Shown here one piece after another: positions 16,729 to 24,228 of a DNA stretch of 64,000 nt (positions are counted from its first letter, which is position 1; each line of letters begins with the position of its first letter). The translations under genes and the position numbers were made by a program. The notes under the pieces were generated by a model, which had not been told where the DNA came from, made no database searches, and saw only the letters and a list, made by a program, of their open reading frames with translations. Source of the DNA: Pseudomonas syringae (GTDB lineage: Bacteria > Pseudomonadota > Gammaproteobacteria > Pseudomonadales > Pseudomonadaceae); contig NZ_LGSI01000056.1 of assembly GCF_001698815.1 (NCBI RefSeq), positions 149,535 through 213,534 on the forward strand, read 5' to 3'.

Positions 16729-17822
16729 TGCAGCCAATTCGAGAGCCTTCCGCCTCGGAAAGCTACTTCTGGCCTGGTATCTGGGCCGTGGCCCTGCACA
16801 TCCTGATTTTTGGCCTGCTCTTCGTCAGCTTCGCCATGACTCCGGATCTGCCGGAATCCAAGCCTATCGTTCAGGCAACGCTTTACCAGCTCAAATCCAA
16901 GAGCCAGGCGACGACCCAGACCAATCAGAAGATTGCCGGCGAGGCGAAGAAGTCCGCTGCGCGCCAGACTGAAGCCGAGCAGCTGGAACAGAAATTAGTC
17001 GAGCAGAAAAAGCAGGAAGCTGTAAAAGCTGCGGAACAAAAGAAAGAAGAGGCCGCTCAAAAAGCCGAGGAACAAAAGGCTGAAGACGCTGCACAGAAGG
17101 CTGAGCAGAAAGCAGAGGAAGCCAAAAAGGCCGACGACGTCAAGAAAGCCGACGAAGCCAAGAAAGTGAATGACGCTAAAAAGGCTGAAGAGAAACAACT
17201 GGCGGATATAGCCAAGAAAAAAGCCGAAGAAGACGCCAAGAAAAAGGCTGAAGAAGACGCCAAGAAAGCCGCCGCAGAGGAAGCCAAGAAACAGGCTGCC
17301 GATGACGCGAAGAAAAAAGCGGCAGAAGACGCGAAGAAGAAATCCGCGGAAGACGCCAAGAAAAAAGCGACCGAAGACGCCAAGAAGAAATCCACAGCCG
17401 ATGCGGCCAAGAAGTCGCAGGAAGCTGCGCGTAAATCGGCCGAAGAGAAAAAGGCTCAGGCCTTGGCTGACTTGCTCTCTGATAAACCGGAGCGGCAACA
17501 GGCGCTGGCGGACGAGCAGGGCGATGAAACGGCAGGTAGTTTCGATGATCTGATTCGTGTTCGGGCTTCCGAAGGTTGGAGCCGACCACCATCAGCACGC
17601 AACAATATGTCGGTAATACTGCAGATCGGGATGCTGCCGGACGGTACGATATCGTCTGTGTCGGTGGCCAAATCCAGCGGCGACGGTCCGTTTGACAGTT
17701 CCGCGGTAGCAGCGGTCAAGAATATTGGGCGTTTAACAGAAATGCAGGGCCTGAAGCCGGCTGACTTCGCTCCCTATCGTTCATTCAAGATGACATTCAC
17801 ACCTGGAGATCTAGCCTTGTGA
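16728..17822 (+). CDS. tolA: Tol-Pal system protein TolA
   Basis: Inner-membrane anchored protein that spans the periplasm to TolB/Pal and transmits proton-motive force. In the 364 aa, domain I is a single N-terminal helix (about 17-40, [18 protein letters not shown]). Domain II (about 60-250) is a long Ala/Lys/Glu-rich helix made of imperfect repeats such as [12 protein letters not shown]. Domain III (about 265-364) is the globular TonB-like end that binds TolB, and phage g3p in other species. The repeats also create the low-complexity DNA at 17.0-17.45 kb. It overlaps tolB by 4 bp. Confidence 0.95.
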
Positions 17823-22077: not shown

Positions 22078-22153
22078 GGGTCGTTAGCTCAGTTGGTAGA
22101 GCAGTTGGCTTTTAACCAATTGGTCGTAGGTTCGAATCCCACACGACCCACCA
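22078..22153 (+). tRNA. tRNA-Lys (TTT)
   Basis: A 76-nt gene with full cloverleaf pairing, acceptor GGGTCGT/ACGACCC, anticodon TTT, TTCGAAT T-loop and encoded CCA. The equivalent tRNA-Lys site is a known integration target for pKLC102/PAPI/PPHGI-type islands in other pseudomonads; no island is present in this window. Confidence 0.97.
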
Positions 22154-22173: not shown

Positions 22174-22218
22174 AAAGCTGTAAGGCCCGTGAAAATGTGG
22201 CCTTACAGCTTTTTTTTT
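22174..22218 (+). terminator. Terminator of tRNA-Lys
   Basis: A 13-bp perfect stem (AAAGCTGTAAGGC/GCCTTACAGCTTT) is followed by nine Ts, 20 bp beyond the CCA end. Confidence 0.92.
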
Positions 22219-22257
22219 GCGTCCGGTTTTTACCGCGCTATTTCGAGTCGAAGCCAT

Positions 22258-22415
22258 CCCGTTGGAGCGAGGCTTGCCTGCGAATCAGACGCCTCGGTGG
22301 GCCAGGCACGCCGCGTCATCGTTCTTCGCGAGCAAGCTCGCTCCCACGGGTAGGTATCGCTCCAACAAGCAGGCAGCAAAAAGCCCCGTCAGATGCTGTC
22401 TGGCGGGGCTTTTGT
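22258..22415. repeat. Tandem unit 1: REPIN plus terminator
   Basis: First copy of a directly repeated unit with a 162-bp period. It consists of a REPIN (two inverted REP arms, GTTGGAGCGAGGCTTGCC... and ...GAGCAAGCTCGCTCCC, 22258-22350) and a terminator hairpin (22378-22414). It differs from copy 2 at only a few positions, with local length-neutral changes around the second REP arm. Confidence 0.85.
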
Positions 22416-22419
22416 TATT

Positions 22420-22577
22420 CCCGTTGGAGCGAGGCTTGCCCGCGAATCAGGCGCCTTGGTGGGCCAGGCACGCCGCGTCATCGTTCTTCGCGAGCAAGCT
22501 CGCTCCCGCAGGGTAGGTGTCGCTCAACAAGCAGGCAGCAAAAAGCCCCGTCAGATGCTGTCTGGCGGGGCTTTTGT
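22420..22577. repeat. Tandem unit 2: REPIN plus terminator
   Basis: Second copy of the unit, offset 162 bp from the first. The REPIN spans 22420-22512. Its hairpin (22540-22576) ends two bases from the mqo stop codon and is the working mqo terminator. The near identity suggests a recent duplication. Confidence 0.85.
22540..22576 (-). terminator. Terminator of mqo (duplicated at 22378-22414)
   Basis: A 15-bp stem with one wobble (AAAAGCCCCGTCAGA/TCTGGCGGGGCTTTT) has A/T runs on both sides. The identical hairpin 162 bp further on forms a second, back-up terminator. Confidence 0.88.
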
Positions 22578-22578
22578 C

Positions 22579-24228
22579 TTACAGCGCCATGTCGGCCGCT
22601 GGATTGCTTTTCTTCGGTGCTGCGGGCTTGTCAGAGGCTGGCGCTGGCGCCACAACCTGATTGTTCACAGGTGGCGGCGGCGTCAGTTGCAGGACTTCGG
22701 CGGTGTAGGCCCATTCCTTGGCAACGGCTTCCGGGCTGGCGTTCAGCTTGGTGCCGTAGCTCGGAACGATCTGGTGCAGTTTTTCCTGCCAGGCCGGTGT
22801 TGCTACCTTGTCCTTGAAGACCTTCTCAAGCACGCTCAGCATGATCGGCGCAGCAGTCGACGCGCCAGGGGAGGCGCCGAGCAGGCCGGCAATGCTGCCG
22901 TCCTGGGACGCAACGATCTCGGTGCCGAGCTTCAGTACGCCGCCTTTCTCTTCATCACGCTTGATGATTTGCACGCGCTGACCGGCTTGCCACAGACGCC
23001 AGTCTTCTTTCTTGGCGTGCGGGAAGTATTCTTTCAGGGCGTTGTAACGGTCGTCATCCGACAGCATCAGTTGACCCGCCAGGTATTCAACCAGCGGGTA
23101 CTGCTCGACACCAACGCGAGCCATCGGCCACACGTTATGCAGCGTGGTGCTGGTCAGCAGGTCCAGGTACGAGCCTTCTTTGAGGAACTTGGTGGAGAAG
23201 GTCGCGAATGGGCCAAACAGGACGACGCGCTTGCCATCCAGCACGCGAGTGTCCAGGTGCGGAACCGACATGGGTGGTGCGCCGGTCGATGCGATGCCGT
23301 AGGCCTTGGCCATGTGCTGCATGGCGATGTCCTGGTTCTCGGTGACCAGGAACGAACCGCCAACCGGGAAGGCGGCGTAATCCTTGGCTTCCGGGATACC
23401 GGACTTCTGCAGCAGATGCAGGGCACCGCCGCCAGCGCCGATGAACACGAACTTGGCATCAGTCGTGGTTTCGGTACCGTCTTTCAGGTTCTTGTACTCG
23501 ACGCGCCACGAACCATCTTTGTTGCGGGTGATGTCCTGCACTTCGCTCGACAGCTTGAGGGCGAAGTTTGGTTGGGCTTTCAGGTGGCCGACGAACTGGC
23601 GAGTGATCTCGCCGAAGTTGACGTCCGTACCGATCGGGCTCCAGGTGACCGCGAGTTTTTGCGCCGGATCACGACCTTCCATCATCAGCGGAACCCACTT
23701 CTTGATCTGCTCTGGGTCCTCGGAGAACTGCATGCCGCTGAACAGCGGGCTCGCCTGCAGAGCGTCGTAGCGCTTCTTCAGGAACTTGATGTTGTTGTCA
23801 CCCCACACGAAGCTCATGTGCGGTGTGGAGTTGATGAACGAACGAGGGTTCTTCAGAACATCGTTCTTGACCTGCCAGGACCAGAACTGACGCGAGATCT
23901 GGAAAGCTTCGTTGATTTCGATGGCCTTGGAGATGTCGACCTTGCCGTTCTTGTCTTCTGGCGTGTAGTTCAGCTCAGCCAGGGCAGAGTGACCGGTACC
24001 GGCGTTGTTCCAGCCGTTGGAGCTTTCCTCGGCGACGCCGTCAAGGCGCTCGACCATTTCCATCGACCAGCCTGGCTCCAGCTCGTTGAGCCAGACCGCG
24101 AGGGTAGAACTCATGATGCCGCCGCCGATCAGTACCACATCGACTTTTTTGGTCTCGGCTGCATGAGTGGGCATGATGCCCATCGACATGGCCAGGCCCA
24201 GCAGGGCCGTGTTCACTTTCTTCAACAT
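22579..24228 (-). CDS. mqo: Malate:quinone oxidoreductase with signal-like N-terminus
   Basis: FAD-dependent, membrane-associated enzyme oxidising L-malate to oxaloacetate and reducing quinone; in pseudomonads it is a main TCA-cycle malate dehydrogenase. In the 549 aa, the dinucleotide-binding motif [11 protein letters not shown] sits at about 31-41, followed by the family blocks [14 protein letters not shown] and [13 protein letters not shown] near the end. Two features are unusual for an enzyme thought to act on the cytoplasmic face: residues 1-24 look like a Sec signal peptide with an AxA-like site (THAAETK), and a Pro/Ala-rich tail of about 35 residues follows the catalytic core. It stands alone between tRNA-Lys and nadA. 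Confidence 0.93.

Follow-up and report, generated by a model that had tools for sequence, protein, structure and literature searches.

The doubled unit between tRNA-Lys and mqo

The window, a 64-kb stretch of DNA, contains a tRNA-Lys gene followed by mqo on the opposite strand, whose product we take from the gene name to be malate:quinone oxidoreductase. Between these genes, at 22257-22577, two units follow each other head to tail with a period of 162. Each unit comprises, in + strand order, a 94-nt REPIN, about 12 nt of spacer and a 53-nt segment that contains a terminator hairpin (Table 1).

Table 1. Features between tRNA-Lys and mqo in the window, and further arrays of REPIN type on other contigs (C numbers) of the same genome
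Feature	Position	Strand	Period and copies	Basis
tRNA-Lys (ttt)	22078..22153	+		tRNA call, Rfam
tRNA-Lys own terminator, hairpin and T run, upstream of both units	22174..22218	+		sequence, repeat search, folding
REPIN copy 1 (REP, loop, inverted REP)	22257..22350	+		repeat search, match search, folding
Spacer copy 1	22351..22362	.		sequence, unit alignment
Terminator segment copy 1, arms 22379-22393 / 22399-22413, identical to copy 2	22363..22415	-		repeat search, folding
Inter-unit stretch, poor match to other copy	22416..22418	.		unit alignment
REPIN copy 2, 95% identical to copy 1	22419..22512	+		repeat search, folding
Spacer copy 2	22513..22524	.		sequence, unit alignment
Terminator segment copy 2, arms 22541-22555 / 22561-22575, directly after mqo stop codon	22525..22577	-		repeat search, folding, mqo scan
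mqo	22579..24228	-		reading frame and relatives
REPIN-type array	C67		101 bp x4.8	
REPIN-type array	C55		99 bp x4.9	
REPIN-type array	C56		102 bp x5.2	
REPIN-type array	C9		108 bp x2.9	
REPIN-like array, other REP type	C42:61897-62452 (L237:1897-2452)		109 bp x5.1	read from sequence

The tandem 162-bp duplication of a REPIN with a terminator, recognised in a first-pass annotation of this DNA, is confirmed by TRF, by paired repeats and by hairpins in both units. TRF reports 22257-22577 with a period of 162, 2.0 copies, 95% matches and a score of 591, the only one of its six rows for the window with a period above 36. A repeat search returned two pairs, both at an offset of 162: one of 94 nt (22257-22350 and 22419-22512) with 95% identity, and one of 53 nt (22363-22415 and 22525-22577) with 100% identity. 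The terminator segments are thus identical between the copies, while the REPIN halves agree at 95%. Over the roughly 160 nt that can be aligned, the copies differ by five substitutions, all of them transitions, and two one-base indels; a stretch of 3 nt where the units join does not match. TRF also finds degenerate tandem repeats with periods of 18-36 at 17005-17414, just upstream of a tolB-like gene; these probably encode a low-complexity Lys/Ala/Glu region in a TolA-like protein.

Is the doubled unit real, or was it produced by the assembly? The draft gives some grounds for suspicion, because an N stands exactly at the junction of two other tandem duplications (near C13:36100 and C71:45100). 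Overlapping contig ends could in principle have been joined in the same way here, but the 64-kb window contains no N, at the unit junction or elsewhere, and the seven differences between the copies would not be expected from overlapping ends of one sequence. Assembly overlap is therefore an unlikely source and the doubled unit is taken as real; an artefact of joined contig ends can be given hardly any credence. The two duplications with an N, which lie near REPINs (L004:1284-1439 and L006:1396-1538), had been considered as supporting cases and were dropped on account of that N at each join; they are probably overlapping contig ends of the draft. One of the two extends into a coding-like stretch.

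Terminator hairpins and the dispersed REPIN family

The two REPs of each unit are inverted with respect to each other and can form one hairpin, with predicted energies of -52.2 and -48.1 kcal/mol for the + strand as RNA (z -4.2 and -3.1). Folding also places a terminator-type hairpin in each unit. The first-pass annotation had described a strong bidirectional terminator, and this holds in part. The hairpin does fold in both directions, but in the direction of mqo it is the weaker, with an internal C.A mismatch in its stem and energies of -22.4 and -21.1 kcal/mol for the two copies, compared with -29.4 and -28.3 kcal/mol in the opposite direction. Part of the T run is base-paired within the mqo terminator stem. 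A strict consensus scan, which asks for at least five T directly after the stem, lists neither copy, nor does it list the terminator of tRNA-Lys. The only feature of the region above the Rfam threshold is the tRNA; two weak ncS01 matches that overlap the terminators, at 24.5 and 21.6 bits, stay well below the gathering score of 58.

Which genes would the doubled terminator serve? It had been proposed that the duplicated terminators insulate tRNA-Lys as well as mqo. For tRNA-Lys this is not supported, because the gene has a strong terminator of its own upstream of both units (arms 22174-22187 and 22199-22212, then a long T run, -29.2 kcal/mol), and the duplicate is therefore not needed for it. 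The mqo terminator starts 4 nt past the stop codon, where mqo transcripts would meet it, and the second copy would follow about 160 nt on; it would act solely on mqo transcripts that had passed the first. The redundancy is probably neutral. A hairpin scan of mqo loci, run with our own uncalibrated settings, recovers the mqo terminator in the window. The scan covered 300 nt downstream of mqo at 80 loci, three of which were excluded for too little downstream DNA; among the remaining 77, one hairpin was found at 67, none at nine and two at one.

The two halves of the unit differ in their distribution. With 40 of 482 first-look candidates scored, a comparison of the whole unit with its own genome gives at least 98 matches, counting partial ones and those on the reverse strand. 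The REPIN half is found at dozens of sites, whereas past position ~105 of the unit only the two window copies are found among the matches listed. A pattern for the REP core with up to two mismatches occurs 186 times, against two occurrences of the reversed control pattern. The genome also has two Y1_Tnp matches above the cut-off, with REP matches about 0.1-1.2 kb away; the two genes are putative RAYT-type transposases. A dispersed REPIN family accompanied by such genes would be compatible with a mobile composite of REPIN and terminator that inserted twice at one place. However, the terminator half is not dispersed. All 11 candidates for a 62-nt terminator query in the same genome were scored, giving two strong matches (100% and 97%), which are the window copies; three further matches are weak, with E from 0.016 to 0.66. 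There is one strong match in Pseudomonas sp. CFII64. A 111-nt query of REP-terminator-REP is fully covered in the window only; 118 other genomes of the genus, in a partial look with seven candidates scored per genome, gave partial matches, the longest of which span 41-111 at 78%, 1-84 at 74% and 1-84 at 70%. Dispersal of the cassette at many loci, the outcome that would have spoken for a mobile repeat, was thus not found in the own genome, in CFII64 or in this partial look at 118 genomes, and a composite element inserted twice is very improbable. On these sequence comparisons, the doubled unit represents a REPIN and the neighbouring mqo terminator duplicated locally in tandem, not a mobile composite that landed twice.

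Besides the unit in the window, five arrays of REPIN type were seen in the genome. As a control, 20 stretches of 20 kb, picked by hand and not at random, contained one array with a period of at least 60, namely the REPIN-like array on C42. On either side of that array lies a REP of the first family, which gives it the look of an insertion into an older REPIN. Of all the arrays seen, the unit in the window carries the most non-REPIN DNA. The four arrays of about 100 bp hold almost no flank and may therefore form differently from the window's unit.

Origin of the duplication

The closest relative by Mqo, among the best 80 of 400 Mqo loci, is Pseudomonas sp. CFII64 (98%). The window and CFII64 (L121) share the gene order queE - queC - tRNA-Lys - mqo - nadA, with flanking DNA that is 92.6-94.9% identical. 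At the same site, CFII64 has one terminator and one REPIN without its 5' REP, with about 10 nt extra after the terminator compared with copy 2 of the window. The proposal that a REPIN joined to mqo's own terminator was duplicated locally is upheld by this one-copy sister strain.

How widespread is this arrangement? In comparison collections with one genome per species, tRNA-Lys or queC was found near mqo at one of the 80 mqo loci, that of CFII64 (flanks of up to 4 kb, some shorter), and at none of 58 loci from other genomes of the genus (flanks of about 1.5 kb). Conversely, none of 29 queC loci from other genomes of the genus had an Mqo match of at least 50% identity within about 1.5 kb of tRNA-Lys; in 15 of these 29 it is nadA, and not mqo, that lies within that distance. 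Since the other loci examined do not have mqo beside tRNA-Lys, mqo seems to have moved to, or been acquired at, the tRNA-Lys/nadA site in the line leading to this strain and CFII64. For the same reason, the other mqo loci were ruled out as one-copy comparisons. C13:61328-62740 encodes another Mqo-like protein, which shares 49% identity with that of the window.

The first-pass annotation had suggested that substitutions between the copies could date the duplication, and each copy does turn out to resemble the other more than it resembles CFII64. Over the 3' part of the unit, 2 of about 115 sites separate the copies, compared with 12/114 and 9/111 when each is set against CFII64 (Fisher p 0.006 and 0.03); these counts are low and shift with the placement of gaps. 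The duplication is thus probably later than the split from CFII64. Conversion between the copies could explain why the terminators are identical when the REPINs differ by about 5%, and the dating would then be too young. Alternatively, the duplication might be older than the split, with CFII64 having lost one copy and part of the REPIN by inter-repeat deletion. The REPIN of CFII64 lacks its 5' REP, so that a deletion there is conceivable, and tandem REPIN copies can be lost: the part of PMC8049555 available here describes an E. coli line in which five of six were deleted. The closeness of the two copies to each other argues against such a loss, which is unlikely. A later duplication is preferred. 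Copy number is observed directly in both strains, and the direction of the change would follow from CFII64; it is drawn from one comparison because a single relative with the same gene order was found.

The following sequence of events is proposed. A REPIN would have inserted between the terminators of tRNA-Lys and mqo in the common ancestor with CFII64, as the shared position suggests. In the lineage of this strain, the segment bounded by the outer sides of the REPIN hairpin and the mqo terminator hairpin would then have been duplicated once, head to tail. This account, an ancestral insertion followed by one duplication, is highly probable as a whole.

What determined the ends of the unit? 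The unit starts at 22257 and the REPIN stem at 22258, while the terminator stem ends at 22413 and the repeat at 22415; each end lies about 1-3 nt or less from the base of a hairpin. No direct repeat flanks the units, and the ten bases outside match at 1/10 on each side. The ends near hairpin bases, together with the lack of a flanking direct repeat, point to a hairpin-guided replication error and not to homologous crossing-over. The likeliest event would be a RecA-independent error of replication, with slippage on the template or a switch of template where the two large hairpins cause stalling; slippage is plausible as the mechanism of doubling. The extra ~10 nt in CFII64 means that the unit end at the hairpin base may instead reflect a later deletion.

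A more elaborate version holds that the hairpins set the ends of the duplication, that a REPIN beside a terminator promotes doubling, and that the doubling was kept as compensation for the mismatch-weakened mqo terminator. In the scan of mqo loci this terminator has about -20.5 kcal/mol, against -27 in CFII64. Since both copies have the mismatch, it either predates the duplication or passed from one copy to the other. The compensation reading is disfavoured because single mqo terminators that are about as strong or weaker (-16.7 to -20 kcal/mol) are common at other mqo loci, and the combined proposal is quite doubtful.

Comparison with known tandem REPINs

The duplication had been thought unusual for REPINs, which were said usually to occur singly or in loose clusters. 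This is not borne out by the literature: the available part of the study by Bertels & Rainey 2011 (PMC3116915) describes REPINs tandemly repeated along with flanking DNA and reports 16 tandem REPIN clusters in Pseudomonas fluorescens SBW25. Local amplification and loss of tandem REPINs are treated in PMC8049555, as far as its accessible text goes. The doubled unit fits the description of a tandem REPIN cluster, with near-identical REPINs and flanks and a short unrepeated stretch between them. The doubled unit is therefore an ordinary local duplication of an already described kind, to which the terminator as flank adds a detail. A narrow search of the literature, which is not proof of absence, found no paper on a tandem duplication of REP and terminator in Pseudomonas or on duplicated tandem Rho-independent terminators.

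The finding itself is small and expected. Its value lies in showing clearly, next to a sister strain with one copy, a REPIN locus that took neighbouring regulatory DNA along in its tandem duplication. Were the breakpoints set by hairpins, REPINs would act as local sources of doubled terminators.

With respect to intrinsic (Rho-independent) terminators, the likeness is a GC-rich hairpin right after the stop codon, with a T run that is partly paired in the stem, comparable to the single hairpins at 67 of 77 mqo loci; the differences are the presence of two copies and the stem mismatch in the mqo direction. The BIME units of E. coli are mostly REP plus linkers. The BIME arrays described in the consulted part of PMC3686654 resemble the doubled unit in their tandem REPIN-like doublets and differ in belonging to another REP family. 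A close parallel in form is provided by the tandem REPIN clusters of SBW25 (PMC3116915, from the portion available), with which the locus shares two near-identical units of REPIN and flank and a short unrepeated separator; relative to those clusters, the flank of the unit is here the terminator of a neighbouring gene.
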